From Hanleya hanleyi (lineage: Eukaryota > Mollusca > Polyplacophora > Lepidopleurida > Hanleyidae): a stretch of 64,000 bases of DNA. Both the position numbers and the translations under genes were made by a program. The stretch covers positions 186,001 to 250,000 of the forward strand of contig JAVTVY010051595.1 in the NCBI GenBank assembly GCA_036873755.1, in the 5' to 3' direction. Below are positions 40,980 through 63,149 of this stretch, piece by piece. A model generated the notes under the pieces. It made no database searches and was not told where the DNA came from. It saw only the letters and a program-made list of their open reading frames with translations. Positions within the stretch are counted from its first letter, which is position 1, and each line of letters opens with the position of its first letter.

Positions 40980-43100
40980 GCTTCTTTTCTCCGTGTATGT
41001 ACGGGGATGTCTGTTTGAATTTTCCGCAAGCGATAACCTCCAAACGCTTTGTTGGATTCTTCCGAAATTCGACAGACGCCAGTTCGTATTGCATTCCAGC
41101 AACATCTGCCTGAAGGTGGCGCCATTGGTTCAAAATGATTCTTGCTTTGTACGTCCGTGTATGTCCGTGGATGTCTGTTTCAATTCCAAACGCTTTGTTG
41201 GATTCTTCCGAAATTCGGCATACGCATTCCTTGCGAGAAGACACCAGTTGGTGTTGCATTTCAGCAACATCTGCCTGAAGGTGGCGCCACTGGGTCAAAA
41301 TGGGTCTTGCTTCTTTGTGTCCGTGGATTTCCGTTTAAATTTTTCGCAAGCGATAACGTCCTAACGCTTTGTCGGATTCTTCCGAAATTCGGCATACGCA
41401 TTCCTTGCGACAAGACGCCGGTTGCTACTGCATTTCAGCAACATCTGCATGAAGGTGGTGCCACTGAGTTTCGCTTCTTCGTGTCTGTTTCAGTTCATAG
41501 ATGTCAGGATAACTTCCAAATGCTTTAGCGGATTCCTCTGAAATTTGGCATATAAATTCCTTGTGACAAGACGCCAGTTGGTATTACATTTCAGCAACAT
41601 CGGTCTGACGGTGGCACCACTGGGTCAAAATCGGTCTTGCTTCTTTGTGTCCGTGGATGTACGTTTAAATTTTTCGCAAGCGATAACGTTCAAACGCTTT
41701 GTCGGATTCTCTCGAAATTCGGCATACGCATTCCTTGCGACAAGACACCGGCTGCTATTGCATTTCAGCAACATCTGCCTGAAAGTGTCGCCACTGGGTC
41801 TCGCTTCTTCATGTCCGTTCCTGTCCGTGGATGTCGGTTCAAATTCTTTGCAAGCGATAACTTCCAAACGCTTTTTTGGATTCTCCCGAAATTCGACATA
41901 CGCATTCCTTGCGACAAGATGCCGGTTGCTACTACTGCATTTCAGCAACGTCTACCTGGAGGTGGTGCCACTGAGTTTCGCTTCTTCATGTCCGTTTCAA
42001 TTCATGGATATCAGGATAACTTCCAAATGCTTTGTCGGATTCCTCTGAAATTTGCCATATACATTCCTTGTGACCAGACGTGGGTTGATATTCCGTTTTA
42101 GCAAGATCCACCTGAAGGTGGCACCACTGGGTCTTGTTCCAATCTTTTGTGCATGTCCGTGGTTGTCCACTCAAATTCTTCACAAGCGATAACTTCCAAA
42201 TGCTTTTTCGAATTTCTTCGATATTTGGCATATATATTCCTTGTGACAAGATGTTGATTGGCATTGCATTTCAGAAACATCTGTTTGTAGGTGATGCCAC
42301 TAGAGTTCTTTCGGTTCTTTTGTGCTGCAAGCGATAACTTTGAAACGTTTTGAATTGAGTTTCGCCCACTTGCACATACAGGTAGCGCCACCTGGTGACC
42401 ACTTCTAAATTTGGTTTCCGGGCAATAACTTGAGAACTGCTCATCGAATTCTTCCCAAATCTGGCATGCATTCATTGTACCTTGAAATGAGATGTTGCTT
42501 CTGCTTACAGATGAAGCTACCTGGTGACACAATCTGAAATTTAACTTGAGAACTGCATGCTCATCGGATTCTTCTCAAATTTAGCATGCATGTACCATGT
42601 CAGGGGATGTTGCATGGGATTGCCTTTCACTCACTTGCACTTACAGGTGGCGCCACCTGGTGGCAAAATCCCAAATTTGTTTCCCGGTAATACCATGACA
42701 AGAGATTGCGTTTCGCCCACTTGCACGTACATGTGGCGCCACCTGGTGTTAAAATCAAAATTTGTTTTCGGCAATTAACTTGAGAACTGCTCATCGGTAT
42801 TTCCTCAAATTTAGCATGCATGTACCACGCCAGGAGAGGTTGCGTTTGATTGCCTCTCGCTCACTTGTACTTACAGGTGGCGCCACTTGGTGACAAATTA
42901 CCAAATTTGTTTCCGGGTAATAACTTGAGAACTGCTAATCAGATTCTTCTTAAATTTGGTATGCATATACCATGACATATGATGTCGCTTGGGATTGCGT
43001 TCCGCCCACTTGGACCTACAGGTGGCTCGTGCCACCTCGTGCCAAAATCTAAATTTGATTTCGATCATCGGATTCTTCTGCAATTTCGTATGCAGATACC
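40980..43100 (+). repeat. Divergent satellite, period about 156-177 bp
   Basis: AACATCTGCCTGAAGGTGGC-type anchors fall at about 41101, 41266, 41440, 41596, 41770, 41947, 42103 and 42276, followed by more divergent units with CAGGTGGCGCCACCTGGTG at 42640, 42720, 42870 and 43010. Other shared parts are CGCAAGCGATAAC, GATTCTTCCGAAATTCGGCA and CCTTGCGACAAGACG. Open frames over it are by-products. The last unit is cut by the Polinton end at 43,104. Confidence 0.85.
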
Positions 43101-43103
43101 ATG

Positions 43104-43870
43104 AGTAGTATACAAAGCGTAAAACGGCACCAATTGACCTCAGAAATTTGCATATGACCTTTGTGACGTCACGCGTCAGCCAATCAGAAGCGAATATTGA
43201 TGTCACGTGGGGTGTGGTTGTATGGTGGTGGGAGGTGGGTGCAAGATGGCGGCCTGTGTGGTGGGAGGTGGATGCAAGATGGCGGCCTGTGTGGTGGGAG
43301 GTGGGTGCAAGATGGCGGCGTGTGGTTGTATGGTGGTGGGAGGTGGGTGCAAGATGGCGGCGTGTGGTTGTATGGTGGTGGGAGGTGGGTGCAAGATGGC
43401 GGCGTGTGGTTGTATGGTGGTGGGAGGTGGGTGCAAGATGGCGGCGTGTGGTTGTATGGTGGTGGGAGGTGGGTGCAAGATGGCGGCCTGTGGTTGGGTG
43501 GTGGGAGATGGGTGCAAGTTGGCGGCATGTGGTTGGTGGTGGGAGGTGGGTGCAAGATGGCGGCTGTGGTTGTATGGTGGTGGGAGGTGGGTGCAAGATG
43601 GCGGCCTGTGGTTGTATGGTGGTGGGAGGTGGGTGCAAGATGGCGGCCTGTGGTTGTATGGTGGTGGGAGGTGGGTGCAAGATGGCGGCCTGTGGTTGTA
43701 TGGTGGTGGGAGGTGGGTGCAAGATGGCGGATTGTAGAAAAACGTATAAAAGGAGTCGATTTTTAGGGAAGGGGTGTATTCATTGCACTACTTTTGCGGA
43801 GCACTGTGACTTACCTGACCTGACCAGCCTCCCTGCCTGCCTACCTGCCTGCCTGCTTCACCTCTAGTCA
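43104..43870 (+). repeat. Left terminal inverted repeat of the Polinton
   Basis: A unique outer segment of about 110 bp (with TGACGTCACGCGTCAGCCAA) is followed by a tandem array at 43230-43735 of 42-bp units, with some shortened to 33 or so. There are 13 units, each carrying AAGATGGCGGC (one variant AAGTTGGCGGC). The array is followed by a TATA segment and a CCTG-rich stretch. All are mirrored at the right end. Confidence 0.92.
43745..43752 (+). promoter_or_regulatory. TATA box in the left TIR
   Basis: TATAAAAG lies directly inside the repeat array and points inward to the CARD gene, about 150 bp before its first ATG. The same sequence is mirrored at 63306-63313. Confidence 0.6.
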
Positions 43871-43897
43871 GTCATCCAGCCTGCTTGCCTGTTTTGT

Positions 43898-44419
43898 ATG
43901 AGCTGTGGAGAACCATTTACTTTTTTTGATTTTACCAGTGCAAATTCAACAGACCATTACGCCGTATTAGTTATTCACCAGCCTGATCCCACAGTCATGG
44001 AGGCAGCCCAGCTAGCGAAGTTTCGAAAGTACCGTGTTCGCCTCATTGATGAAATACAGCATGTGGCTGAACTATGTAATTTCCTTATGCAGGAAAACAT
44101 ACTCGTGAAAGAGGGTGTGGAAAATATCATGGCGGAGAAAACCCCTTCAGCACAAAACAGAGCTCTCATCGACTGTCTACTGCGCCGTGGCCCTTCTGCA
44201 TTTCTAGTCTTGGTGGCGGGGTTGAAGATCACGGGAAATGACGAACTAGCAGATCTACTTGAAGCCGACGACGTTATACAAGATGATGATATCTTAGTGA
44301 TGGATACCACCGAAGAGCGTACAGCTAGCAAACGTACGCACACTACCCCAGAGAGTACACCTACCAAACGCGTTGGACGCCCCCAAACGCCCCCGACTAA
44401 CACCGTTAGAAATACCTGA
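43898..44419 (+). CDS. CARD-domain protein (173 aa)
   Basis: Residues about 34-120 fit a death-fold CARD: a first helix FRKYRVRLIDEI, then ELCNFLMQENILVKEGVENI, then ALIDCLLRRGPSAFLVLVAGL and a final helix NDELADLLE. CARDs mediate like-with-like contacts in apoptosis and inflammasome signalling; a mobile virus-like element carrying one suggests interference with host death or innate signalling, which is inference. The C-terminal 50 residues are acidic and then Thr/Pro/Arg-rich. The second ATG (43997, GTCATGG) has the better context and would start exactly at the CARD. The last 119 nt overlap the next frame (+1), and the ORF ends ACC-TGA-G. Confidence 0.7.
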   Translation: MSCGEPFTFFDFTSANSTDHYAVLVIHQPDPTVMEAAQLAKFRKYRVRLIDEIQHVAELCNFLMQENILVKEGVENIMAEKTPSAQNRALIDCLLRRGPSAFLVLVAGLKITGNDELADLLEADDVIQDDDILVMDTTEERTASKRTHTTPESTPTKRVGRPQTPPTNTVRNT

Positions 44420-44483
44420 GTCAGTGATTGAGGAGCCAGTAGTACCCCAGCAAGTGCCTGTGAAAGAAGAAGTGCAACTTCCT

Positions 44484-45184
44484 ATGTCTGTCCAGGAGAT
44501 CAATAACCTCATCCAGCAAGCCTACCAGGCAGCCCACACGGACATTTGGGAGCTCTCACCCTATTTAACTGTGAGTGTGAAAGACGAAGAAGTGCATTTT
44601 AATGCAGCGGGCTTTAACGACAGACCCAGTAGGCATATTGCCATGACCTTAGTCACCTGGCAAAAACTGGAGACCCTTGATTACGCCATCGATGCGGTTA
44701 TTCGCGACCAGGGAAATGACGAAGCGAAATTTTTTGTGGGTGACGACACCTTTGTGAGCTGTGCTTATTTCAACGACCAGCTCCTGGTGCATATTCGTAA
44801 ATGGAAAATGCGGTTAGATACGCAAGAGCTTGTTGCTTGTCCTCAGGGCGTCACCTTGAAATTAACGGCCTGGCGGAAGTTGCAGAGTCTCGCAAGTACA
44901 ATTCGTCAAGCTCTAGTCTACCAGGTGTCTCACTATATTTATCAGAAGTACATCGACACAGTCCTGGATCTCATCAGACCTCAAATTCCACAGGACACTA
45001 GTGTACCCTCATACGCACTGATCACTGAAGCACTACAGGCTGTGACCGAGACGCAAATTGCCCTGGGAGTGGAAGCTGGCTGTCCTCCCAAAATTCCACG
45101 TGAAGAGATTATTACCTACATCTACGTGCACCAGGGACGGAAAGACGATGATGAATTCAAACAAGTCTTGTTGGCGAACTATTG
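44484..45184 (+). CDS. PC4-like single-strand DNA-binding protein
   Basis: The frame is open from 44301, but the first ATG is 44484; upstream codons in this frame look coding (an APKRPRL basic patch followed by an acidic Val/Pro stretch), so expression by frameshift from the CARD frame, by splicing or by a non-ATG start is possible. Two PC4-type halves are seen: one ending in MTLVTWQKLETLDYAI, and one running FFVGDDTFVSCAYFN, LLVHIRKWKMRL and GVTLKLTAWRKLQSL. This matches the strand order and W-x-x-L helix of the transcription coactivator PC4/p15. A role in replication or transcription is inferred. Similar halves occur at 50704 and 51473. Confidence 0.55.
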
Positions 45185-46300
45185 AACAATCAGAACAAGT
45201 GTTGAAAAACATTTTACCGTATTCCTACACACATTTATTGAAGTGGCTTGAGAGCGTATAATTGTATTAAAAATTCATAGTTTTTTACTGTTAATTGTAT
45301 TAAAAAATTCAATACTCATATATAATTGTATTAAAATTCAATACCCTTGTGAACACGTTCATTCTATTTGTGTTAATAAAAATAGTAGAAAATTAAAAAA
45401 TGCTTGTTAGTGTTCATTGGACCCTTCGGCCACCGCGCATGCGCAGAATGACCCTAATTTAACCCCACACCCAGCCCGTCAGATGCCTCTTCACATAAGC
45501 TTCACATCGATACCTCACTCCACCCCATCGGTCCACTAGGGGCTTCCCTAGATCCAAAACGTCTATTTTCATACCCTTCGGCCACCGCGCATGCGCAGAA
45601 TGACCCTAATTCAACCCCACACCCAGTCCATCAGATGCCCCTTCACGTAAGCTTCAATTTGATACCTCACTCGACCCACTACCTCCAAAAAATAAAAAAA
45701 ATGAATGTTCATATCCGAAAAGGGTATGAAAATAAAGTTACTCTCGTCCAATCAACACCTAGCCCATTAGATGCCCCTTCATGAATGCTTCACATTGATA
45801 CCTCACTCGACCCCATTGCACCATTAGGGGCTCCCCTAGCTCCAAAAAGGTTATTTATTTTCGGATATGAACATTTCTTTTTTTATTTTTATTTTTTTTT
45901 ATTTTGGGGGGAGTGGGTCGAGTGAGGTATCAAATTGAAGCTTAGGTGAAGGGACATCTGATGGCCTGGGTGTGGGGTTGAATTAGGGTTATTCTGCGCA
46001 TGCGCGGCGGCCGAAGGGTATGAAAATAGCCTTTTTTGGAGCTAGGGGAGCCCCTAATGGTGCAATGGAGTCGAGTGAGGTATCAATGTGAAGCATTCAT
46101 GAAGGGGCATCTAATGGACTGGGTGTGGGGTTGAAATAATCCTTTTTTTTCAATAATTTCAATTTTTAGTTTTTCAATAATTTCAAAAAAAAATTAAAAA
46201 AATTTAAAAAAAAAAAATTTCTTTGAGGAGAGGATGATGGGCGTTGGTGTTAATTTTTGTGCTTTTTTGATAGAAGTTTCCTCTTCCGGAAAGATGGGGT
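45185..46300. repeat. Direct and inverted repeat block between convergent Polinton genes
   Basis: Units with CACCGCGCATGCGCAGAATG, CAACCCCACACCCAG and GATACCTCACTCGACCC occur at 45418-45575, 45574-45710 and (shorter) 45750-45870. They recur inverted at 45905-46025 and 46030-46135. No ORF. T-rich and A-rich tracts follow (46140-46220). Confidence 0.75.
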
Positions 46301-46316
46301 GGCCCTGAAAAGGGCC
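46276..46316 (-). terminator. Histone-type 3' end: stem-loop plus purine-rich downstream element
   Basis: On the minus strand the sequence is CAAA, then GGCCCTTTTCAGGGCC (46316-46301), then ACCCCATCTTTCC and GGAAGAGGAAAC. The 6-bp stem, TTTC loop, upstream CAAA, downstream ACC-CA and the purine block 13 nt further on all match metazoan replication-dependent histone mRNA 3' ends. It lies 19 nt after the stop codon of the RING gene. Confidence 0.8.
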
Positions 46317-46335
46317 TTTGAAAGTGTTACGACAC

Positions 46336-47172
46336 TTATGCGCGGTAGATTCTTTTTATTCCACCCACATGCTTCCTGCAGATTGGACACTTGATTTTTA
46401 AATGGTTTTCACCTGCTTCAACGCAGTGGCACATGTCTCCTACACACGTCAGCGTGACCCAACAATCTTTACAGATGCATAAATGCCCACACGGTAATAC
46501 AGCGTACAAGCTCTCTTCATCCGTACAGACACTACACCTTGATATTTTTTCTTCTTTATGTAGTTGTTTGTTCTGTCTGGAAATCTCCGCTTCCATGACA
46601 TTCATGTCTTCCCGCATGGCGTTAATCCGTTCGTTGAGGCGGGTTACTTCGGCTTCGCCCCAAGAGCATGGTTGTGGTGGTGTTTCTGCAGCCGAAGTCG
46701 TTATACTGGGAGTTTCGGCAGGCGACGTTGTTGCAAGTCTATTGCTATTTAACCATGCAACGTCTTCAGCCGAAGTCGTTATACTGGGAGTTTCGGCAGG
46801 CGACGTCGTTGTTGTAGTTGTTGGAGGTCTATTGCTATTTAACCATGCAAGGTCTTGTCCGTTTTCCTCATCAGTTATATCGTCGTCGCTTTCTTCTTCT
46901 ATGACCACCATCCTGCTAATTTCTTCGTCTTGTTGTTGACTTAGCCTTTGCAACCGTCCATCTTCTTCTGCCATTACATCTCGCCGGAGTTGTTCCAGTT
47001 CTTCTGTACTTCGTCTTATCATGGCTTCGTCTTCCAAAACCCGCTGAAAGCTTGTAATTATGGTTATTCCACCATCCTCTTCACTGCTAATCATCTCTGT
47101 GTGTTCTGTAGCAGCATTTCTAGGATCTCTAGGGGGGTGGTGGGTGAACAGTGGTCGTCTTCTTGTACTCAT
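46336..47172 (-). CDS. C-terminal RING-finger protein with coiled coil (278 aa)
   Basis: The N-terminal 100 residues are acidic and helical (EELEQLRRDVMAEEDGRLQR). A Thr/Ser/Pro stretch follows, containing an internal duplication (AWLNSNR ... SPAETPSITTSA, twice). Then comes a coiled coil (TRLNERINAMREDMNVMEAE) and a C-terminal RING (CSVCTDEE, CGHLCICKDCW, CPICRK) that should bind two zincs and act as a ubiquitin E3 ligase. Adintovirus-like elements often carry RING proteins of this kind; targets are unknown. A TATAAATA box lies at 47217-47210, 38 bp upstream, and a histone-type stem-loop directly follows the stop. Confidence 0.85.
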   Translation of the reverse strand: MSTRRRPLFTHHPPRDPRNAATEHTEMISSEEDGGITIITSFQRVLEDEAMIRRSTEELEQLRRDVMAEEDGRLQRLSQQQDEEISRMVVIEEESDDDITDEENGQDLAWLNSNRPPTTTTTTSPAETPSITTSAEDVAWLNSNRLATTSPAETPSITTSAAETPPQPCSWGEAEVTRLNERINAMREDMNVMEAEISRQNKQLHKEEKISRCSVCTDEESLYAVLPCGHLCICKDCWVTLTCVGDMCHCVEAGENHLKIKCPICRKHVGGIKRIYRA

Positions 47173-47209
47173 GATTGTATTTGTGAATAAATGTCAATAT
47201 ACTACACGT

Positions 47210-47217
47210 TATTTATA
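47210..47217 (-). promoter_or_regulatory. TATA box of the leftward RING gene
   Basis: TATAAATA on the minus strand, 38 bp before the ATG at 47172. Confidence 0.6.
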
Positions 47218-47224
47218 GTCTAGT

Positions 47225-47312
47225 CGGCTGTGTGTGGTGGGAGGTGGGTGCAAGATGGCGGCCTGTGGTTGTATGGTGGTGGGAGATGGGTGCAAGATGG
47301 CGGCCGGTGTCA
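47225..47312 (+). repeat. Internal copies of the TIR repeat with two AAGATGGCGGC cores
   Basis: Two units of the same 42-bp family as the TIR array sit between the divergent promoters of the two RING genes. Confidence 0.8.
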
Positions 47313-47340
47313 GTCAGTGCAATATGGTGGTATCTGCTAA

Positions 47341-47522
47341 AATTTTTTGGTGTAAAAAATCGCTAAATTCATTAAAAATAACGGCATAGTCTAGCGCTAG
47401 GCGGCTAAAATTGTTTAAATACTACACCATAACTTGCCTGAGTTTAATTGGAAATAAAATTTATACGTGCCCTGATTTATTGTAAAATCACAGCCGTTTA
47501 TAATTGGAAAAGAAACACAAAT
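47341..47522 (+). repeat. Left arm of an inverted repeat around the accessory genes
   Basis: Matches 49714-49892 inverted (TAGTCTAGCGCTAGGCGGCT, TTAAATACTACACCAT, TTTATTGTAAAATCACAGCC). No coding capacity; precedes the promoters of the inner genes. Confidence 0.75.
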
Positions 47523-47589
47523 ATATTTTTGTTGAGCGTAGCAGACGACACAGCTAGAGTGCTTTCGCTACGGTCCGTACTTTTTACAC

Positions 47590-47597
47590 TATAAATA
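47590..47597 (+). promoter_or_regulatory. TATA box of the rightward RING transcript
   Basis: TATAAATA, 50 bp before the first ATG at 47647. Confidence 0.6.
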
Positions 47598-47646
47598 GTA
47601 CGCAGTATTTTTTTCAGTCATTCACAATTAGCCTCAGTGCCCAGTC

Positions 47647-47757
47647 ATGGAGCCACTCATGGATATTGACATACCAGACTTGTTCACAAATGCTGATAAT
47701 GAAGTACAACTGCTTGGCAATATTATTAATATGGTACATGACGAACCTTGGTTATAA
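47647..47757 (+). CDS. Short acidic leader ORF (36 aa) overlapping the RING gene start
   Basis: Starts at the first ATG (CAGTCATGG) after the TATA box and encodes an acidic, hydrophobic peptide (MEPLMDIDIPDLFTNADN), reminiscent of a transactivation domain. Its TAA shares an A with the next ATG (TAATG), an arrangement compatible with termination-reinitiation. Confidence 0.5.
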   Translation: MEPLMDIDIPDLFTNADNEVQLLGNIINMVHDEPWL

Positions 47758-48548
47758 TGAAAGACTTATTTCCACCACCTCAACCCCCGAACTACCCTCT
47801 ACCAACCACACCTCATTGTGAAGACCCCCCAGAAACATCGCAGCTTAGTAACTTCTTCACCCTAGCAGCCACACCGGATGTTACCCCAGACGAATACCAA
47901 TGTTTTGACGACATAGACCAGATGTTAGAAACGATGATGTTGAAACCACAAAGCCCTCAAGCTAAAGAAAAAGATGGAACCCATACAGATGGAACCGCTG
48001 CAGATGGAACCCATACAAATGGAACCGATACAGAACAAGGACAAGATGCGCAGGAGAAGACTACAGTACTCCAAAAAAAGAAAGACTCAAGAAAAAGAGA
48101 GACGAAAGACTTAAGAACAGGAACAAAGAGGGTAGACGCGAAACAAAACAGAAAAGATGTCAGAATCAATCGGAATCGACAACAGGAGAGAAAACACAGG
48201 AAGGATGTCAGAACAAAGAGAATAAGAGAGAATACCCGGAAACTAAGCCAAAAACAAAATCAAGACGAGATGCACTACGTTTGGGCAATAGCAACAACAA
48301 CACTGGGGGCCAACACAGAACGTCAAATAGCCTTATATTTATCCTGCGTGGAATGCACTAACCAATTTGCGAAATATGCTATTTCCCCTTGCGGTCACCA
48401 AGCCTTATGCGAAACTTGTATTCATCGATACGCCCAAATACCAACGTGTGTCCAGGCTAATAAACCCCGAGTGTGTCAATTGATACCTTTGACATGTCCC
48501 GTGTGTACTGAGAGGAAACAACGTCAACAGGCCCTGTCAACGATGTAA
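47757..48548 (+). CDS. Second C-terminal RING protein (263 aa)
   Basis: The ATG at 47757 is used because the upstream codons start with TTG. The N-terminus is proline-rich and acidic and includes YQCFDDIDQML, loosely like an LxCxE-type pocket-binding motif but without the leucine. The middle is Thr/Gly-rich (DGTHTDGTAADGTHTNGTDT) and then very basic (RKRETKDLRTGTKR). The C-terminus is a RING: CVECTNQ, CGHQALCETC, CVQANKPRVC, CPVCTE, with an extended loop. It is probably a nuclear E3 ligase; substrates unknown. A histone-like stem-loop follows 21 nt after the stop. Confidence 0.8.
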   Translation: MKDLFPPPQPPNYPLPTTPHCEDPPETSQLSNFFTLAATPDVTPDEYQCFDDIDQMLETMMLKPQSPQAKEKDGTHTDGTAADGTHTNGTDTEQGQDAQEKTTVLQKKKDSRKRETKDLRTGTKRVDAKQNRKDVRINRNRQQERKHRKDVRTKRIRENTRKLSQKQNQDEMHYVWAIATTTLGANTERQIALYLSCVECTNQFAKYAISPCGHQALCETCIHRYAQIPTCVQANKPRVCQLIPLTCPVCTERKQRQQALSTM

Positions 48549-48569
48549 TGGCTTATTACATATCCAAAA

Positions 48570-48614
48570 GGTTATTTTTATAACCATCCATCTTTTCCGG
48601 AAGGGAAAACTTCT
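48570..48614 (+). terminator. Histone-like 3' end of the rightward RING gene
   Basis: CCAAAA, then GGTTATTTTTATAACC (48570-48585), then ATCCATCTTTTCC and GGAAGGGAAAAC. One stem pair departs from the histone consensus (A-T at position 5) and the loop is TTTT, but flanks, spacing and the downstream purine element match the two other genes. Confidence 0.65.
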
Positions 48615-48680
48615 AAAAAATGCACATTAACATCAGATTCCCACACACACATATATATATCCTGTCCTGGTTCAAATAAA

Positions 48681-48770
48681 TTGTCAGTCCGTTATCATTC
48701 GGGCTGTTATAACTCCCCCTATCAAAATAAAAAATAAATGTCAGTCCGTTATCATTCGGACTGTATAATA
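48681..48770 (+). repeat. Two direct copies of a small hairpin
   Basis: TGTCAGTCCGTTATCATTCG occurs at 48681 and 48738; GTCCG and CGGAC can pair around TTATCATT. Confidence 0.7.
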
Positions 48771-48950
48771 TTAATTAATTAATTACTGGGAGAGAGAAAA
48801 AATTAAACCTGTGTTTATAAGAGAGAGATTAGTCCTCACAAGGACTTTTAATATAGGGCAGGGATTGTTTTTTTTTGGTGATGCAGTTTGCTAATAAAAC
48901 AGGGGTAATGTGGGAGATCTGTGCTTTTGAAATTTGTGTGCCAAATTATT

Positions 48951-48994
48951 AGAAGCTTCCTCTTTCGAAGCATTGGTTCGCCCTGAAAAGGGCG
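48951..48994 (-). terminator. Histone-type 3' end of the proline-rich gene
   Basis: On the minus strand: CGCCCTTTTCAGGGCG (48994-48979), AACCAATGCTTC, then GAAAGAGGAAGC. Stem 6 bp with TTTC loop; the first pair is C-G instead of G-C. The purine block begins 12 nt after the stem. It lies 50 nt after the stop codon. Confidence 0.75.
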
Positions 48995-49044
48995 GTTAGA
49001 ATCAATTTGTTATGCTGTTTTCTTCAGCAGGGAAGTTTTCCTGT

Positions 49045-49605
49045 CTACTTCCCCGTACTATTCATCGCACTCACGGAGAAATATTCACCAGATGGATGGA
49101 GTGTGTACAAATGCTGCACATCTTCATCTTCATCTTCTTCATGGACGAAGATTGGTAAATCATCCATGAAGTTGGCGGGTGGTATTGTTGGTCTAGGTGG
49201 TGAATTATCCAAAATGCCGGGCAGGTCTTCTAGCGGAAAGGGAGGTGGAGGTATAACATCCACAGGCTGGATTGGTGGAGGTGGTGTTGATGGTCGGGGG
49301 GCGATCAGTCGAGGCTGGGCAGGGCGCAGGTTATCCTCCATTGTTCTTTGTAACAGCTCAAACCAATCTTCGGCTCCCACGCTTCTCGCTCCGTTCAGTA
49401 AAGCCCTCACATTCTCCGCGGTGCCCGTCCCTGCATAATTGTTACGCAAACGGGCGCTCCATTGAGTGAATTCACGCAGCCAGAATTCTCTAATTTCTCT
49501 CATCATGGCTCTCTTCCGTCTTCTGGACACCCCTCGCTCCTGTGTTGTTGAAATTCTTGCACGGCTCATTTTTCTTTCTCTCTCTCTCTCTCTATTTGTT
49601 GACAT
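49045..49605 (-). CDS. Proline-rich acidic Polinton protein of unknown function (186 aa)
   Basis: The N-terminus is very basic (a RERERERKMSRAR start coded by a GA-rich microsatellite). A helical middle follows (MMREIREFWLREFTQWSARL, ENVRALLNGARSV, WFELLQRTMEDNL), then a Pro-rich segment (RPSTPPPPIQPVDVIPPPP) and an acidic end (FVHEEDEDEDVQHL). An alternative ATG at 49569 would drop the GA-repeat part. TATATATA at 49652-49659 lies about 47 bp upstream; a histone-type stem-loop follows. Family not recognised; with the RING genes it forms an accessory module probably acting on the host. Confidence 0.65.
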   Translation of the reverse strand: MSTNRERERERKMSRARISTTQERGVSRRRKRAMMREIREFWLREFTQWSARLRNNYAGTGTAENVRALLNGARSVGAEDWFELLQRTMEDNLRPAQPRLIAPRPSTPPPPIQPVDVIPPPPFPLEDLPGILDNSPPRPTIPPANFMDDLPIFVHEEDEDEDVQHLYTLHPSGEYFSVSAMNSTGK

Positions 49606-49631
49606 CTATCTCAGTGAAAGGTTTTTGAATA

Positions 49632-49648
49632 GCCCGCTTCAAGCGGGT
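49632..49648. promoter_or_regulatory. Small GC palindrome in the 5' leader
   Basis: GCCCGCTTCAAGCGGGT is nearly self-complementary and sits between the TATA box and the ATG of the 49605 gene. Confidence 0.4.
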
Positions 49649-49713
49649 CACTATATATATAGACAAAGCACCGACCTCGGCGAAATCGCCAAGGCTGTGT
49701 TACGCTTAGAAAA

Positions 49714-49892
49714 TCGATGTGTGTTTCTTTCTCAATTATAAATGGCTGTGATTTTACAATAAATCCCAGTGCACATATACATTTTATTTCCAATTGAAGT
49801 CAGATAATTCATGGTGTAGTATTTAAAAAAATTAGCCGCCTAGCGCTAGACTATGTTGTTATTTTATGAATTTTAGCGATTTTTACTCGCCT
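49714..49892 (-). repeat. Right arm of the inverted repeat around the accessory genes
   Basis: Inverted match to 47341-47522 at roughly 80-85% by eye. Confidence 0.75.
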
Positions 49893-50660
49893 AATGTAAA
49901 AGTACGATAGTACGAAAAACTCCGTACATTGAAAATAAATCGGTTTTCCTGGCTAAAAATACATGAAGATTATGACTTACAGCCTTATAATAGCTCGGTA
50001 AAAATTCCAGCGGGTTTATCGAAAGAGAACTCTAGAAAATTATAAAAACATAGCCTTCGTTTCACGGTAAGAAACACAACGTGCGCAGTTCCGATTGAAT
50101 TTTGTGGCAAAAAAATGGGACGCAACTCTGTTTTGACAGAAATGAAATTTGTTGCAATTAATGCTATTTGGTAATTTTATTAAATGTGTTTGTCGTATGA
50201 ATTACATTGTTTTATTGAGGTAGGATCATGAAAAGGATGTTGGCTACCTATTTAATTAATTGTTTCATTGAATTAACGTTTCCTAAAATTTATAAGCTGT
50301 CTCAAAAGGGGGCCTGAGTTCGCTGGAGAATCGGGAACCCTCTCGCCAGCAGTAAGCGCACTATGGGCACACAGTTTAGCATTTAAAAAATACCTTCACG
50401 TACGTATAGCATTTATTACATATATAGTATGGCTTTCCAAGTATTTGGTTTTGCTATTTCAGAGCACTATTGATTGTTCTGGTAATTATGATGACTTGAT
50501 ATTATATCTCAGCAATGATATTATTTTATTTTTATCATGTTATTACTCAAGAATATCAATTTATGCACTCTTGGTCCGCCTACAAAAATTGCATTGTCAA
50601 TTTAATTATTTTCTACAACAAGGTACGAATTTTTTTATTACAATGAAATTAGCAAGAATC
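49893..50660. other. AT-rich Polinton intergenic region
   Basis: No ORF with coding character. A TATATATT box at 50663-50670 precedes the next gene. Confidence 0.45.
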
Positions 50661-50703
50661 GGTATATATTTTGCCTGGCCCGGTATTTTTGTCATTCATC
50701 ATT

Positions 50704-51180
50704 ATGGCAGCGCCCGGAAAGGAGCTCGCTTTCTTTCAACTGACGTCTGATGTGATTCTGATCGTGTATGATCATGAATTGCAGCTTATCGAGGAACATC
50801 CTAGAGAAGTGAAATTATCTTTAAGTTTACCAGGCTGGACTCTATTAACACGGTTGTTACAGGGAAAAGAGCCCGAAGTGGATTTTATGCATGTGGGACT
50901 CGGTGTATACCTGCGGAGTGGTAGAGATAATTCTTTTTTTCCGCGGCTAGAACAGTGTGGGGGTGCCGCTATCCTACTGCGGCCGGCATTATGGCAAGCG
51001 CTGAAAGCTATTATCACCGATGTCCACGATGTACTCTACCCTGAGGCCAATTCTCTAGCTACCCGTACGCTTACCCCGGATTGTACGCTATTATTATACC
51101 CCCAACTTGTGGAGCTGATCGATGATGATAGCCGCTGTTGGTGTACGTCAGAACCTGCGCGTGTCTCTTTATCCCCGTAA
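50704..51180 (+). CDS. PC4-like protein, stops early at TAA (158 aa)
   Basis: ATTATGGCAGCG at 50704 is preferred over the upstream in-frame non-ATG start. Two PC4-type halves are visible: VILIVYDHELQLIEE followed by LSLPGWTLLTRLL, and VGLGVYLRSG followed by AAILLRPALWQALKAII. A third half begins (LLLYPQLVELIDDDSRCWC), then the TAA at 51178-51180 interrupts it. The same frame continues open to 51402 with the rest of that third half and a fourth. The paralogue at 51473 has sense codons at this point, so the stop looks like a recent nonsense change or a readthrough point. Confidence 0.6.
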   Translation: MAAPGKELAFFQLTSDVILIVYDHELQLIEEHPREVKLSLSLPGWTLLTRLLQGKEPEVDFMHVGLGVYLRSGRDNSFFPRLEQCGGAAILLRPALWQALKAIITDVHDVLYPEANSLATRTLTPDCTLLLYPQLVELIDDDSRCWCTSEPARVSLSP

Positions 51181-51402
51181 GGCTGGATTACCTTGAAACG
51201 TGTGTTATGCGGTGATCTCGACGGGGATAGCATTTACCTGTGTGACGACGTGTACATTTTCCGCGGACCTTATTTTGTTCGACTTCTGTGTCTCAAGCGA
51301 GGGGGATTTACTCTGGACCCCGATCTATGGACGGCTTTGCAACAAGTAGTGCCCATGGTCGATAAAGTACTCTCTCCACAGGAGCCGCCTCTCACAGAAT
51401 AG
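51181..51402 (+). pseudogene. In-frame continuation of the PC4-like gene after the stop
   Basis: Begins GWITLKRVLCGDLDG in the same frame as 50704-51180 and ends at TAG 51400-51402. Strong similarity to the middle of the 51473 protein (GW...KRVLSGELDG; LW.ALE.IVPIVD). The only ATG (51193) lies inside the conserved core, so independent translation is unlikely to give a folded domain. Confidence 0.55.
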
Positions 51403-51411
51403 TACCTGACC

Positions 51412-51419
51412 CTATAAAT
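51412..51419 (+). promoter_or_regulatory. TATA box before the second PC4-like gene
   Basis: TATAAATA, about 60 bp before the ATG at 51473 and directly after the preceding stop. Confidence 0.65.
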
Positions 51420-51472
51420 ACGAGGGATGAGACAGAGTGTGTGTCATTCTCCGTTCGACATTTAGAGCAAGC

Positions 51473-52021
51473 ATGTCACTACGAGCCATCCTGCCTCTTA
51501 CACCTTACCAGGTGGGGTTATACGTCTATGAAGATAAAGTCACCCTGGTGGAAGACGGTGGAGCTATTTGCTGGGCGCCCGCTGAGACTCTATCGAATAC
51601 GGTGACACTACAGCGTGATGGCTGGACTAAATTTAAACGGGTGTTGAGCGGTGAGTTAGACGGACACCTCATCCACATGGACAATGCCATCTACGTATAC
51701 CGTACCGCCCTCTTCCCACGTGTGGGCCGCTACCAAGAGCCTGCGCGAAGTTTCCTCCTAACTCCCTCTCTGTGGTCAGCCTTGGAGAAAATAGTGCCTA
51801 TTGTGGACCAGTTATTTACACCGGACGACCGATCACCCGACCAATTGGCGTGGGTTCGTGCTATGGAAGACGCGCTAGCTGAACCTTATGAAAAACAACA
51901 ACAACATGAATCAGATGATACAGCCGGGGAAAGTATTATATCTATAGAATGCACAGAGGCTAGAGTGACAGTGTCACCTAATGAAGCGACCCACACACAT
52001 GACGGCGACCCAGAACGATGA
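51473..52021 (+). CDS. PC4-like paired-domain protein (182 aa)
   Basis: The ATG at 51473 (GCAAGCATGTC) follows a TATA box. Two PC4-type halves are seen: VGLYVYEDKVTLVED followed by GWTKFKRVLSGELDG, and LIHMDNAIYVYRTALF followed by FLLTPSLWSALEKIVPIVD. The last 50 residues are acidic and Thr-rich. It is the intact counterpart of 50704-51402 and more distantly of 44484-45184, so the element carries a small family. Proposed role: single-stranded DNA binding in replication or late transcription (inference). Its stop overlaps the integrase start as ATGA. Confidence 0.6.
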   Translation: MSLRAILPLTPYQVGLYVYEDKVTLVEDGGAICWAPAETLSNTVTLQRDGWTKFKRVLSGELDGHLIHMDNAIYVYRTALFPRVGRYQEPARSFLLTPSLWSALEKIVPIVDQLFTPDDRSPDQLAWVRAMEDALAEPYEKQQQHESDDTAGESIISIECTEARVTVSPNEATHTHDGDPER

Positions 52022-53142
52022 AGGGTAAGAAGAAGCCCGTAATGAAGCGGTCCCGAAAGGGAAAAAAGGAGTCTACAGTGATTAACGAGGTGTTAACCGA
52101 TTTGTATTACAGCCCTACCAGTCCAGCCGCGTATAGCGCTGTGGGAGCGCTGTCTCGAGCTGCCCATTCTCAAGGCATTAGTCGAACTGAAGTTCGAGAC
52201 TGGTTAAAAACCCGAGACACTTATAGTTTACACCGAGCAGCCCGACGCCATTTTCGCCGTAACCGAGTGATCGTCGGAGGTATAGACGCGCAATGGCAGG
52301 CGGATTTAGTGGACATGAGTCGCTTTGCACCTCACAATGATGGACATCGGTACATATTGACCTGTATCGATATTTTATCCAAGTATGCCTGGGTACTACC
52401 CATTCGCACCAAAACAGGAGAGAATCTAATAGGAGCATTCCAGCAGATTTTCAAGACGGGGCGCAAACCTCTTTATTTACAAACAGATGAAGGCACGGAA
52501 TTTCTCAACCGACCCTTTCAAGCCTTTCTTAAGAAACAGAAGGTATTTTTCTTTCATACGTACAACGAGACGAAAGCTTCTGTGGTGGAACGCTTCAATC
52601 GTACCTTCAAAGGCCGAATGTACAAGTATTTTACCGCCCAAAACACCCGACGGTACATCGATGTACTATCTCAACTGGTCCAAGGGTACAATCGCGCCTA
52701 TCATCGCAGTATCCAGCGAGCTCCCCGTGATGTGACAGAACGCAACGAACATCAAGTGCGTGATACGCTGTACTCATCCAGTCCATCACTCACGGCACCC
52801 CGTTACAAACGTGGAGATGTGGTACGGATCAGTAAAGTGAAAGGCCAATTTGAGAAAAGTTACTTGCCCAACTGGAGTGACGAGCACTTTGTCATCGTTC
52901 GCCATAAACCTCGACAGCCACACGTCTATCAACTGGAAGATCTACAAGGAGAGAGACTGCAAGGCACGTTTTACGAGGCAGAATTACAACCCATAGTGAA
53001 AACACCGAAAGACTACTACACGGTGGAAAAGATTTTGAAAACGGAACATCGACGTGGCATCCCCTATCATCTCGTCAAATGGCAAGGATGGCCTCGTTCG
53101 TTTAATTCCTGGGTGTCCGGCCGTGACATGAAACGTCTATAA
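52018..53142 (+). CDS. Polinton integrase, DDE type with C-terminal chromodomain (374 aa)
   Basis: Cuts and joins element ends to host DNA. The rve core has WQADLVDMSRF (Asp96), LQTDEGTEF (Asp157) and ASVVERFNRT (Glu191); the last two are 33 residues apart. An SH3-like basic segment follows (PRYKRGDVVRISK). Residues about 330-374 form a chromodomain (YTVEKILK ... YHLVKWQGWPRSFNSW) that could steer insertion to methylated histone tails. The N-terminus is very basic. Overlaps the preceding gene by four bases (ATGA). The frame is complete and all catalytic residues are present. Confidence 0.95.
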   Translation: MKGKKKPVMKRSRKGKKESTVINEVLTDLYYSPTSPAAYSAVGALSRAAHSQGISRTEVRDWLKTRDTYSLHRAARRHFRRNRVIVGGIDAQWQADLVDMSRFAPHNDGHRYILTCIDILSKYAWVLPIRTKTGENLIGAFQQIFKTGRKPLYLQTDEGTEFLNRPFQAFLKKQKVFFFHTYNETKASVVERFNRTFKGRMYKYFTAQNTRRYIDVLSQLVQGYNRAYHRSIQRAPRDVTERNEHQVRDTLYSSSPSLTAPRYKRGDVVRISKVKGQFEKSYLPNWSDEHFVIVRHKPRQPHVYQLEDLQGERLQGTFYEAELQPIVKTPKDYYTVEKILKTEHRRGIPYHLVKWQGWPRSFNSWVSGRDMKRL

Positions 53143-53186
53143 ATTCTAACCCCTATCATCACCAGCCTTCAGTGTAGGATTGTACC

Positions 53187-53771
53187 ATGGACAGTACACG
53201 TCTACCCTTACTATTACGAACTCGAAAAGCACAAGTGGGTACTGTAGTGTGTGTAGTAGTGGTTCTGGGTACGTTATTTACAGGCGTGTTCTACGATTTG
53301 ACGACCGTGATATCCTGTTTGAACACCCTGCGTTCCACATCTCCGTCATCCACCACTTCGACCACGACCACGACCACGACGCTGCCTACGCCATCCAAGA
53401 CGTCAAGGGTTCGCCACGTATCAACCCAGACACCCACCACACCGCCGTCTACACCGTCTACTCCAGCCATCACCACTACGTTACCCTTTGCCCGCTACAT
53501 CGACCTATCAACGACGACGACGCCCCGTACTACTACCACAACTCCACGTCATCCGCCGCCGTCATCCCTGAGAAGCGACCATCCTTCTACCCCATCACCA
53601 CCACCAACACCTAGTACCACCAACACCACCACGCTGCTAAACATATTTGCAGTGGATCCCCGTGAATCACAACGTTTACCACGACAACGGTATCCATTCG
53701 ACTACGATCCCCGGTGGGATCCACGACAACGGTGGTGGGCTTCTAACCGTCGAGCGCAAATCACCAAATAA
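53187..53771 (+). CDS. Mucin-like single-pass membrane protein (194 aa)
   Basis: After a short basic N-terminus (LLLRTRKAQ) comes one hydrophobic segment (VGTVVCVVVVLGTLFTGVFY, residues about 17-36), so a type II or signal-anchored topology is expected. Residues about 50-150 are almost all Thr, Ser and Pro, suited to dense O-glycosylation. The C-terminal 40 residues are rich in Arg, Trp, Tyr and Asp (RYPFDYDPRWDPRQRWW). Not a known family. The position between integrase and ATPase suggests a virion or infected-cell surface protein (inference). Other long frames here come from low-complexity sequence. Confidence 0.65.
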   Translation: MDSTRLPLLLRTRKAQVGTVVCVVVVLGTLFTGVFYDLTTVISCLNTLRSTSPSSTTSTTTTTTTLPTPSKTSRVRHVSTQTPTTPPSTPSTPAITTTLPFARYIDLSTTTTPRTTTTTPRHPPPSSLRSDHPSTPSPPPTPSTTNTTTLLNIFAVDPRESQRLPRQRYPFDYDPRWDPRQRWWASNRRAQITK

Positions 53772-53786
53772 AAAACTAAAAAAACT

Positions 53787-54401
53787 ATGGATCCTCGGTG
53801 GCAGCATCCTTTCACGTGTCTCATCGCTGGACCGACAGGGTCGGGAAAAACACACTTCGTTCAACGTCTGATCCAACATGGGTCAGCCCTCATTTCACCG
53901 CCTCTAGCTCGCATCCTGTGGTGTTATGGAGCTTGGCAACCCGCGTACGAGGAACTGGCACGTGTCCCGGGACTCACCTTAGTGGAAGGCTTACCCCCTG
54001 AGGATACACCCCAAGACACCTTGGTGGTGGTGGACGATCTCATGACGGAAACGGACAGTCGAATCACCCGTCTCTTTACCAAAGGAAGCCATCATCGTCG
54101 GTTGAGCATCATCTACATCGTACAGAATCTCTTCAGTAAGAACAAAGAGGACAGGAACATTAGTTTGAATGCTCAGTATGTGGTGTTATTCAAAAACCCC
54201 AGAGACGCTTCGCAAATTACGCACCTGGCCCAACAGATGTACCCTAAAAACACGGCCTTTGTACGAGAAGCCTTTGAAGATGCTACCCAACCCGCTCACG
54301 GGTATCTACTCATTGACTTGAAACAAGACACGCCCTCCACCCTGCGATTGCGTACCCTCATTTTTCCCGGCGAGGTGCAGACGGTGTACACACCCAAATG
54401 A
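53787..54401 (+). CDS. Genome-packaging ATPase, FtsK/HerA (A32-like) type (204 aa)
   Basis: Walker A is AGPTGSGKTHF near the N-terminus; Walker B is TLVVVDDLM at about residue 80; a sensor-like IIYIVQNLF follows. Length and order match Polinton packaging ATPases, which pump DNA into the capsid. It begins 16 bp after the preceding stop. The frame is intact. Confidence 0.92.
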   Translation: MDPRWQHPFTCLIAGPTGSGKTHFVQRLIQHGSALISPPLARILWCYGAWQPAYEELARVPGLTLVEGLPPEDTPQDTLVVVDDLMTETDSRITRLFTKGSHHRRLSIIYIVQNLFSKNKEDRNISLNAQYVVLFKNPRDASQITHLAQQMYPKNTAFVREAFEDATQPAHGYLLIDLKQDTPSTLRLRTLIFPGEVQTVYTPK

Positions 54402-54461
54402 GTAAAGAAATAAAAGAAGATAAAAGAAGAAGACAATGCACTCTAGCCATCATTCATCATC

Positions 54462-54800
54462 ATGTCTGCACGCGTACGCAAGCACGCGCCGGCCCTGCGC
54501 GTATTACGCAGCGCGCCACCGGAGGTGGGCCGGGCCCTGGTGCGCGGAGCGGATGCGGACTTGGTACGGTGTTTGTGTGAAGTGGCCCATAATGTGTTAA
54601 AAGGCAATGTTCCACTCAGTCCTCTGCAGAAAGGGAAATTGCAACGGCACAAGGCGGGTCTCCGAACGTTGGTGAAGAAGACGGGCAGTGTCAAGAAAAA
54701 GAAACAGGTGTTACAGCGAGGTGGATTTCTCGGCGCACTCCTCGCCCCCTTAGCCGCTACTGTACTGGGACCATTATTAGGCTCCATCTTGGGACGCTAA
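54462..54800 (+). CDS. Small basic Polinton protein with hydrophobic Gly/Leu tail (112 aa)
   Basis: Begins SARVRKHAPALRVLRSA, contains LVRCLCEVAHNVLKGNVPLS and a Lys-rich stretch, and ends GGFLGALLAPLAATVLGPLL. I recognise this arrangement as a conserved small protein of animal Polinton/adintovirus elements with no firm function. The amphipathic, glycine-rich tail suggests membrane activity or a core role (inference). One base separates its stop from the next ATG. Confidence 0.7.
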   Translation: MSARVRKHAPALRVLRSAPPEVGRALVRGADADLVRCLCEVAHNVLKGNVPLSPLQKGKLQRHKAGLRTLVKKTGSVKKKKQVLQRGGFLGALLAPLAATVLGPLLGSILGR

Positions 54801-54801
54801 C

Positions 54802-55563
54802 ATGGAACATACGGAAAAAATGATGCTGGTCGAACCTCGACTGTTACAGAGTTTGCAATCACCCTATCCCGTACCGGCCACAGTGCAACAACTCCAGTCT
54901 CTGGATGAAGAGATGAATAGTATACTGCAACGTCGATTACCCGATCACGAGAAAATTCAACTCTACCATCATACGCTGAACCGGTACCAGACGTTTATGG
55001 ATCAATATAGAGGGAGTAGTACTAGTAGTACACCACCACTGCCACCACTACCCACCACCACCACTGCCACAACTACTCTCACATCCCCGGCACCCCCTTC
55101 ACCTGAGCTGGAAGAGGAAGTGTTGACCAGTGTGCCTAAAGCCTTCAAGACCAAGGCCCGTTTATTGTTGGACCGGGTGAAACAGAATGCCAATATGAGT
55201 TGGAACGCGGAAGGAAAACTGCTGATTCGAAACAAAGTGGTGCCGGGGTCTCATATGACCGATTTGATCAACGATATGGTCCGTTCTCGCAAACACTCTA
55301 ATCCACCGGGCTGGGAAGTCTTTGCTGAGGGATTAAAAGACACGCACATCCCTCAAGAATTGGTAGGGAATCCTAACCGTTGGGCCTTTATGCAGGAATC
55401 GACCCGACACCAACCACCACCACCACGTGCCTCCTCTTCTTGGTCGCCCATGTCACCGCCCAAAACACCACAACAACCACGACGCGGGGGCCCTACCCGA
55501 TCTAAGTCACCGCGACGATCACAACGCCAAGGTAAGGCGCCCAAGACCTGGGAACCCTACTAA
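54802..55563 (+). CDS. Conserved Polinton protein of unknown function (253 aa)
   Basis: The N-terminal helix LDEEMNSILQRRLPDHEKIQ is followed by a Thr/Pro linker. A folded block follows (KARLLLDRVKQNANMSWNAE, then PGSHMTDLINDMVRSRKHSN, PPGWEVFAEGL and NPNRWAF). The tail is basic and Pro/Arg-rich. The WN..G ... PGS...DL ... GW..F pattern recurs in other animal Polintons as far as I recall; role unknown, perhaps a virion or scaffolding protein. Confidence 0.65.
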   Translation: MEHTEKMMLVEPRLLQSLQSPYPVPATVQQLQSLDEEMNSILQRRLPDHEKIQLYHHTLNRYQTFMDQYRGSSTSSTPPLPPLPTTTTATTTLTSPAPPSPELEEEVLTSVPKAFKTKARLLLDRVKQNANMSWNAEGKLLIRNKVVPGSHMTDLINDMVRSRKHSNPPGWEVFAEGLKDTHIPQELVGNPNRWAFMQESTRHQPPPPRASSSWSPMSPPKTPQQPRRGGPTRSKSPRRSQRQGKAPKTWEPY

Positions 55564-55606
55564 GGGCACCCTACTAAGGGCACCCTACTAATAACTCCTA
55601 TAAAAA
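55561..55606 (+). promoter_or_regulatory. Promoter of the capsid gene cluster: triple repeat and TATA box
   Basis: TAAGGGCACCCTAC-type units occur three times (55561-55590), followed by TATAAAAA at 55599-55606, 36 bp before the penton gene ATG. It is the only clear TATA box ahead of the penton, small basic protein, major capsid and protease genes. Confidence 0.6.
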
Positions 55607-55641
55607 CCCGGTGCAGAAGCCAGAACAACTCAGTCGTCGTC

Positions 55642-56430
55642 ATGTTTTACCTGACGTTGCCCAGTAATAGCTCACTCGACGTGTTTCCTGACAACACCTT
55701 GACCAAGTATGTCACTCAATTACCCCAACCGTTACATTTACCTGGACGATGGGAATGTGGACTGGTGGATATTCAATACCCTTACTCATGGTACAACGTA
55801 CAAAACCGAGAAGTATGGTACGAAGTGACCTACGAAGGTGATATCTACAGACTGACTCTCCCCCAAGGCCAATACGATACGCCCCAGAAGTTCATACAGG
55901 GTCTGCTGGACTTGTTGGAGTACAAGGCTCTAAAGGAGAGCACGGATACTGCAACACGCCTGATAGCCTTTCGCTTCAAGGAAAAAGTGTTCTTCGATGT
56001 CAACGTACACAACGACAAGAGCTCTATCATGCTGAGCCCTAACGTGGCTGTGAAACTCAGTCCTACACTACAGCAAATGTTACGGCTGCCTTACAGCGTC
56101 TACACGGGTCCCGCCATTGACAACGGTACACATTTGATGGATATGAAAGTAGGTATGTACGGACTGTACGTCTACTCGGACGCAGTGGACAGCCATATTG
56201 TGGGTGATGTGAACACACCTCTGTTACGGGTGGTGTCCATTAGCAAGACGTATGGCGATCAAGCCACCCAGAGTTTCAACCATATAATGTACCTGCCCGT
56301 ACGACATACCGATATCAACACGATCACGGTAGATATAAGAGATGACACGGGACGTCCGATCCCATTCGAACGAGGAAAAGTGGTGCTGACACTTGCTTTC
56401 CGACAAGTCCGCTCTCCTCACTTCGTATAA
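55642..56430 (+). CDS. Minor capsid (penton-like) protein, single jelly roll (262 aa)
   Basis: MFYLTLPSNSSLDVFPDNT opens the protein and the WECGLVDIQYPYSWYNV region matches the Polinton penton family. Later parts include SPTLQQMLRLPYSVYTG, VGMYGLYVYSD, and a conserved end (YLPVRHTDINTITVDIRDDT, then VVLTLAFRQ). It would form the capsid vertices. Length is as usual. The stop overlaps the next ATG as TAATG. Confidence 0.92.
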   Translation: MFYLTLPSNSSLDVFPDNTLTKYVTQLPQPLHLPGRWECGLVDIQYPYSWYNVQNREVWYEVTYEGDIYRLTLPQGQYDTPQKFIQGLLDLLEYKALKESTDTATRLIAFRFKEKVFFDVNVHNDKSSIMLSPNVAVKLSPTLQQMLRLPYSVYTGPAIDNGTHLMDMKVGMYGLYVYSDAVDSHIVGDVNTPLLRVVSISKTYGDQATQSFNHIMYLPVRHTDINTITVDIRDDTGRPIPFERGKVVLTLAFRQVRSPHFV

Positions 56431-56867
56431 TGTACGCGCCTTACCAGTGCCATACGCCCAGCTATGCCGACTACTACAAGAAACAACCGGGCGGAGGCTT
56501 GCCCATGTTTAGCGGTGCACGCATGCAACGAGGTCACGGATTGGGGAACATACTGGGCAGCATTGTGAAAACGTTTTTACCCTTGGTGATACGGGGTGTG
56601 AAAGCGGTGGGAAAACAAGCGGTACGCAGTGGATTGCGCGTGGCCGGTGATGTGATGGAAGGCACAGCACCCCGACAAGCCTTCAAACGACGGGCTAAAG
56701 AAGCCGGCGGCGTCTTGATCGCCAAAGCCCTTAAAAGACAAAGACCGACACAGCCAAGATTCATTCAACGTCCAACACGCCGACGACGCACACCCCAGAG
56801 GAGGACTAAGACCAGGACGAACAAGAAGAAGAAGAGGAGTAATAATAGGAGAGACATCTTCGCATAA
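56430..56867 (+). CDS. Small basic virion protein with membrane-active-like N-terminus (145 aa)
   Basis: Contains GGGLPMFSGARMQRGHGLGN followed by an amphipathic helix (ILGSIVKTFLPLVIRGVKAV) and a C-terminus dominated by Arg and Lys. Position between penton and major capsid genes and composition recall adenoviral core or lytic proteins (pVI/pX type); homology is not demonstrated. It starts and ends in TAATG overlaps with its neighbours. Confidence 0.7.
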   Translation: MYAPYQCHTPSYADYYKKQPGGGLPMFSGARMQRGHGLGNILGSIVKTFLPLVIRGVKAVGKQAVRSGLRVAGDVMEGTAPRQAFKRRAKEAGGVLIAKALKRQRPTQPRFIQRPTRRRRTPQRRTKTRTNKKKKRSNNRRDIFA

Positions 56868-58177: not shown

Positions 58178-58185
58178 GAGTCATC

Positions 58186-58662: not shown

Positions 58663-58734
58663 AAAATGTACTGCGTGCGCGCAGGCCACTTGTTTATTGT
58701 TATTGTTATGACGTTGTTGTTCTGACGTTCTGTT

Positions 58735-58740
58735 GAATAA
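58735..58740 (+). terminator. Polyadenylation signal after the protease gene
   Basis: AATAAA about 75 nt after the stop of the last rightward gene, followed by A-rich sequence. Confidence 0.5.
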
Positions 58741-58897
58741 AAGATAAAAAAAACACAAAAAAATGTTTTGACTTTCTTTTTTATTTAAGTCAACAAGAAT
58801 GGGATACTGAATAGGTACAAATAGAATACAGGGTACAAATAGTAGGGGTATGTACACATAGAATAGTAGTGGTATGTATAAGGTACAAAAAAAGTTC

Positions 58898-58981: not shown

Positions 58982-59032
58982 TTTTACAGTTTTATAACTC
59001 GTGTATCAACAATTATAGTTCCACATTGTTTT

Positions 59033-63141: not shown

Positions 63142-63149
63142 GCTTTTCG

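Follow-up and report, generated by a model that had tools for sequence, protein, structure and literature searches.

Candidate histone-type 3′ processing signals at the ends of three accessory genes of a Polinton in the mollusc Hanleya hanleyi

Three accessory genes of a Polinton, a virus-like element in the genome of Hanleya hanleyi, end in stem-loops of the kind that closes replication-dependent histone mRNAs, each followed by a purine-rich block. The stretch of DNA analyzed here, referred to as the window, is 64,000 nucleotides (nt) long, and the element lies at approximately 43100..63840 within it (no strand assigned), its ends being placed by the outermost arms of inverted repeats. The three genes encode two RING proteins (RING1 and RING2) and a proline-rich protein (PRO). 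We conclude that the stem-loops are 3′ processing signals of the histone type, maintained by selection on Polinton genes that encode proteins. We further put at about four in five the probability that RING1, RING2 and PRO form one Polinton gene class whose pre-mRNAs are cut by the replication-dependent histone 3′ machinery of the host, yielding mRNAs without poly(A). The observations bearing on this are the cis-elements themselves, their position, their conservation and covariation, the likeness of one gene end to that of a host histone H1 gene, and an upstream module shared by these genes.

Outside histone genes such an mRNA end is hardly known. In the mechanism proposed here, SLBP would hold the stem-loop, the U7 small nuclear ribonucleoprotein (snRNP) would pair with the purine block, and cleavage shortly past the stem would leave an mRNA with the stem-loop, not a poly(A) tail, at its 3′ terminus. 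Expression of RING1, RING2 and PRO would fall largely within S phase, a time at which the element could have its own DNA copied. We infer the cut, the missing poly(A) tail, the action of SLBP and U7, and the S-phase timing by analogy with established histone biology. If the proposal is true, the single mRNA pathway tied to DNA replication is open to selfish DNA, Polintons would have a concrete means to time accessory genes, and poly(A)-selected RNA sequencing is predicted to miss these transcripts.

RING1 (46336..47172, minus strand; 278 amino acids, aa) and RING2 (47757..48548, plus strand; an open reading frame, ORF, of 263 aa) are divergent, and PRO (49045..49605, minus strand; proline-rich, 186 aa, without a Pfam family) is convergent on RING2. 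The stem-loops lie at 46301..46316 on the minus strand for RING1 (GGCCCT-TTTC-AGGGCC), at 48570..48585 on the plus strand for RING2 (GGTTAT-TTTT-ATAACC) and at 48979..48994 on the minus strand for PRO (CGCCCT-TTTC-AGGGCG), the PRO stem having an outer C-G pair where G-C is expected. They start 19, 21 and 50 nt past the stop codon, respectively. The purine-rich blocks begin 13 nt past the stem in RING1 (46276..46288, minus strand; kept in copies), 13 nt in RING2 (48599..48609, plus strand) and 12 nt in PRO (48955..48966, minus strand). A first-pass annotation of this DNA had called the coordinates of all three stem-loops, the exact sequence of one, a stop-to-stem distance of 19-50 nt, and a purine-rich block 12-13 nt past each stem; all of these calls were correct.

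That annotation had also proposed a check against the Rfam histone stem-loop model, and here the outcome was divided. The RING1 site (match at 46275-46321) scored 35.8 bits, over the gathering score of 34 bits for RF00032 (Histone3), with the model matched over all 46 positions and the downstream block included. The RING2 site (48565-48609; 24.9 bits, E=0.004) and the PRO site (48953-48999; 22.3 bits, E=0.04), whose blocks likewise lie inside the match, fell under it. No further Histone3 match at E<=10 was found in 42-64 kb beyond these three, and none in 1-42 kb. Taken alone, the RING2 and PRO sites would be marginal; homologous gene ends in the host genome lend them support.

All copies compared come from the host genome (2.48 Gb, 52,793 contigs), whose loci are numbered here with the prefix L. 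In a genome scan with Histone3, 74 matches were listed, of which 72 were over the cut-off; since only the best 75 of 360,901 candidates were scored, this list is biased to canonical stems. Sixty-eight of the 74 sites were fetched and read, and six were left out. The genes ending at the 68 sites were RING1 homologues (29), RING2 homologues (8), members of a family that we call TR1 (29), histone H1 (1) and a putative PIF/HARBI1-like gene (1); RING homologues accounted for 37/68 sites and a histone gene, H1, for a single one. Window RING1 was 53-79% identical to nine open copies, with local matches down to about 39%.

Two of the other classes merit description in their own right. TR1 is a multicopy family, partly in tandem arrays, that encodes a protein of about 105-130 aa without a Pfam family and ends in a histone-type stem-loop and purine block; its 29 loci are L001, L003, L005, L006, L012-L020, L027, L029-L034, L037-L040, L045-L048 and L067. 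The stem-loop at about position 3006 of L049 gave a Histone3 match of 39.2 bits, over the cut-off. By eye the gene there resembles a PIF/HARBI1-like transposase; if this is right, such ends would extend to mobile elements of a second kind.

Gene ends that had not been selected by their own stem were also inspected. At loci found through the stem-loop of one RING gene, the end of the other RING gene carried a perfect stem in 26 of 29 cases and a stem with one or two mismatches in the remaining three. Where RING1 had been selected, 22 of the 23 RING2 ends in reach were perfect and one had a single mismatch (L058); where RING2 had been selected, 4/6 RING1 ends in reach were perfect, with one mismatch in L068 and two in L062. 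The purine block was present at all 29 partner ends, that of L011 being shortened by the contig end. For PRO, six stretches were fetched by expected position: four ends had a perfect stem and block, one a 5-bp remnant with block (L083), and one, with an insertion past the stop, lacked a stem (L087). L084 and L085 carried one stem-loop before the block, and L082 and L086 carried two in tandem. PRO itself was identified by tblastn in L083, L084, L085 and L087; in L082 it was identified by an ORF that is similar but gave no BLAST match, and in L086 by the 3′ end only. Next to the RING pair of L055, L082 encodes an integrase (about 87%), an ATPase (95%) and homologues of two more ORFs, and that copy is therefore Polinton DNA. 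A homologue of the element's PC4-like gene lies nearby in seven other loci (L007, L008, L061-L064 and L068). The first-pass annotation had held that absence of the stem-loops from close relatives would refute its claim; within the host genome, they are present in copies.

A second, small hairpin was seen at or just past the stop codon, upstream of the stem-loop, at 33/34 RING1 and 31/31 RING2 sites (window included), and its sequence differs between the two genes. Most TR1 sites, as well as PRO and H1, have similar small hairpins ahead of the stem-loop; the 5-bp stem in H1 alone could be chance.

The stems were aligned over 54 distinct ends, leaving out the mismatched stems of L058, L062 and L068 as well as L011 with its contig end. 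Standard pairs made up 99.7% of stem cells, and T-G pairs occurred. Four of the six stem pairs were altered on both sides, and none of 500 shuffles reached as high a covariation, in an alignment most of whose rows had been found with a pattern fixing the outer GG/CC and the inner T-A, that is, three of the six pairs. The three middle pairs, at least partly free to mismatch, were unpaired in 1/162 cells, although the independent changes are fewer than the cells because the copies are related. When window RING1 was compared with nine copies, identity was 39-79% at fourfold-degenerate sites, 87-100% over the 23 nt of the stem-loop and its nearest flanks, 54-79% over the following 41 nt, which include the block, and 24-44% over the 200 nt beyond. 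In the farthest copies, fourfold sites stood at 39-40% against 96% for the stem-loop; in the nearest, L066, the figures were 79% and 87%, a small margin because the L066 stem differs by a compensatory pair.

These results bear on three of the other explanations considered. That the inverted repeats arose by chance, an idea to which two of the three window sites lend themselves by scoring under the Rfam gathering score, we regard as refuted: RING homologue ends recur among the genome sites, the partner genes have stems, the stems covary, and the stem-loop is conserved beyond fourfold sites. It is also highly improbable that an ancestor gained histone 3′ ends passively, by recombination, and that they are now functionless. 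The whole 3′ tail is closely like that of host H1, as such a capture would have it, but the stem-loop has been kept where fourfold sites diverged, changes in the stems compensate for each other, and a stem-loop is present on each of three different genes. The third possibility is that the inverted repeat acts as DNA, in replication, in recombination or as a protein-binding palindrome, rather than as an RNA signal. Extra stem-loop copies, perfect or with one mismatch and lacking a purine block, do occur in repeats near PRO in L082, L085, L086 and L087; the gene-end stem-loops, however, lie in one orientation, shortly past the stop, and are followed by a purine block, and T-G pairs in the stems suit RNA better than DNA. 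We give a DNA role very little credence.

The likeness to the host histone end is close. The H1 gene of L002 ends in CCAAA-GGCCCTTTTCAGGGCC-ACCCAATTCTTCGAAAGAGGAAATTTCTGACTAAAGCACA and the RING2 gene of L053 in CCAAA-GGCCCTTTTCAGGGCC-ACCCAATTCTTTCGAAAGAGAACTTCTAACTCAAAGCACA, the likeness extending beyond the purine block. It is plausible that the element's 3′ ends originated through capture of a histone gene end. In 9.2 kb of sequence flanking H1, no core histone was recognized by motif.

The poly(A) signals and upstream sequences speak to whether such ends would serve timing. No AATAAA or ATTAAA occurs in the 400 nt past the RING1 stop. The stop of RING2 is followed by AATAAA at 126 nt and that of PRO by ATTAAA at 192 nt, both beyond the stem-loop, and poly(A) forms of these two are therefore possible. 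Elsewhere in the element, AATAAA follows the stop of the protease gene, which closes the structural block, at 73 nt and that of the last polymerase ORF at 247 nt; the stop of the PC4-like gene is followed by ATTAAA, at 80 nt. An upstream module of about 175 bp lies between RING1 and RING2 (47355..47529, no strand assigned), and a second, inverted copy lies between PRO and a rightward ORF at 50704 (49710..49884, likewise without strand). Pieces of the two copies are 83-89% complementary, and an exact 24-mer (47385-47408) is common to both and occurs nowhere else in the window at <=3 mismatches. The module is not exclusive to the stem-loop genes, because the ORF at 50704 shares its second copy. 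Sharing of this module suggests common timing of the stem-loop genes, which argues against an alternative in which the histone machinery does cut the signals, but mainly to provide a compact, strong 3′ end or an escape from poly(A)-dependent control, with RING2 and PRO having a second mRNA form from the downstream poly(A) sites. The compactness of the element and those two sites fit this alternative, whereas RING1, with no such signal, does not; we consider it unlikely on balance.

Several points weigh against cleavage of the three pre-mRNAs by the histone machinery. No U7 snRNA gene was recognized in the host genome, the best Rfam match reaching 27.1 bits, under the cut-off. The comparison with host histones involves a single gene, H1. 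The downstream poly(A) signals of RING2 and PRO, the block-less stem-loop copies in repeats near PRO, and the favouring of canonical stems both in the genome list and in the alignment must be counted here as well, and the evidence is from DNA sequence. We nevertheless favour cleavage by the histone machinery, at the probability given above. Matches to the Rfam model and homologous ends within the host genome support the claim, made in the first-pass annotation, of histone-type 3′ signals on Polinton genes.

A separate search of the genome combined bases complementary to the purine block with an Sm site that we take to be of the U7 type. Of the 45 places returned, the majority belonged to a single repeat in near-identical copies; five others that were read resemble repeats or unrelated DNA, not U7, and were set aside.

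The products of these genes suggest what a timed class might deliver. Among solved chains, the C-terminal RING of RING1 is nearest to those of cIAP2 (E=1.4e-7), cIAP1 and XIAP, and is of the IAP type; RING2 also has a C-terminal RING, matched at 23.9 bits, under the Pfam cut-off of 27. No BIR domain family was found by Pfam at E<=0.1 in either protein. The window RING1 protein begins MSTRRRPLF, and ten aligned rows have RRRLF, RRLVF, RRLLF or RRRPLF at the N-terminus, motifs that we take to be of the cyclin-docking form, as in p21 and CDC6. An LxCxE motif in RING2 was set aside; it overlaps a RING cysteine and is missing from the L004 homologue. The element also encodes a CARD protein (45.3 bits), whose closest matches among solved chains are caspases and RAIDD; a fair guess would be that RING1 and the CARD gene interfere with the cell cycle or with cell death. 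We lean, by a narrow measure, towards the wider proposal that an animal Polinton lineage may possess a dedicated S-phase gene class, defined by the upstream module and the host-histone-type 3′ end, which would supply, at host DNA replication, two partner proteins together with a RING ligase that is IAP-like and has an N-terminus of cyclin-docking-like form: in effect, viral early genes coupled to the pathway of histone mRNAs.

Homologues of RING1 were sought more widely. In the protein database, none was found at E<=0.001 with the single protein, nor with a 10-row alignment of copies among the 7,994 candidates that had most words in common with it and were scored. In IMG/VR, no relatives of the element's capsid were found with a single protein or a 20-row alignment, and the exact canonical stem-loop pattern occurred in 0 contigs.

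The element itself is a Polinton by its integrase, protease, polymerase B, weak ATPase match, capsid and terminal inverted repeats. It is about 20.7 kb long and has inverted repeats at its two ends, near 43.1 kb and near 63.8 kb; a 6-bp target-site duplication is a feature of Polintons. Its products include an rve integrase that has a chromodomain (Pfam), an adenovirus-type protease and DNA polymerase B, and an ATPase with weak P-loop matches only (Pox_A32, 21 bits; cut-off 22.8). Its capsid gene matched 1,527 homologues; among the best 120, those with an organism name come from the molluscs Littorina, Liolophura and Batillaria. The accessory genes include those for the CARD protein, a weakly PC4-like protein, the two RING proteins and PRO. 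The window copy is probably damaged, because the N-terminal segment of RING2 (47647-47757) is in a different frame from the remainder, where relatives read through, and the polymerase region (59033-62907, minus strand) is broken into several ORFs. Between the protease and polymerase genes of the element lies a gene for tRNA-Leu (TAA), at 58898-58981 (minus strand). The motif AAGATGGCGGC, which we take to resemble a YY1 site, is present in 11 copies in the left repeat (43243-43689), in 9 copies in the right (63369-63697) and in two copies upstream of RING1 (47252-47304).

The first-pass annotation knew of no description of such ends in Polintons, and we too found none for Polintons, Mavericks or adintoviruses in searches of the open-access literature, whose matches on adintoviruses, on viruses with histone stem-loops, on SLBP and on transposable elements were covered in part; the parts of PMC11071296 consulted do not concern 3′ ends. 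With those elements the window element has integrase, polymerase B, protease, ATPase, capsid and terminal inverted repeats in common. With the IAP-type RING ligases (cIAP1, cIAP2, XIAP) it shares the C-terminal RING of RING1, although Pfam reports no BIR domain in RING1 or RING2. The ends of the three genes follow the pattern of metazoan replication-dependent histone genes (RF00032), which are served by SLBP and U7 snRNP: a stem of 6 bp, a loop of 4 nt and a purine block that starts 12-13 nt further on; at RING1 the flanks are also of the histone type, with CAAA before and ACCC after the stem-loop. Hairpins occur in bivalve histone mRNAs, with purine-rich elements in some, according to PMC6210712. 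Unlike the metazoan histone signal, those described here end non-histone genes of a virus-like element, and some PRO copies have two stem-loops in tandem. We found one precedent: the Tm1-HH transposons of root-knot nematodes are likewise transposable elements with a histone hairpin, in non-coding copies, and were presented in 2011 (PMC3169594) as the sole exception to histone-only use of such an mRNA end. As described there, Tm1-HH elements are small, Mutator-like and without obvious coding potential, whereas here three coding genes of a Polinton each end in a stem-loop and purine block.

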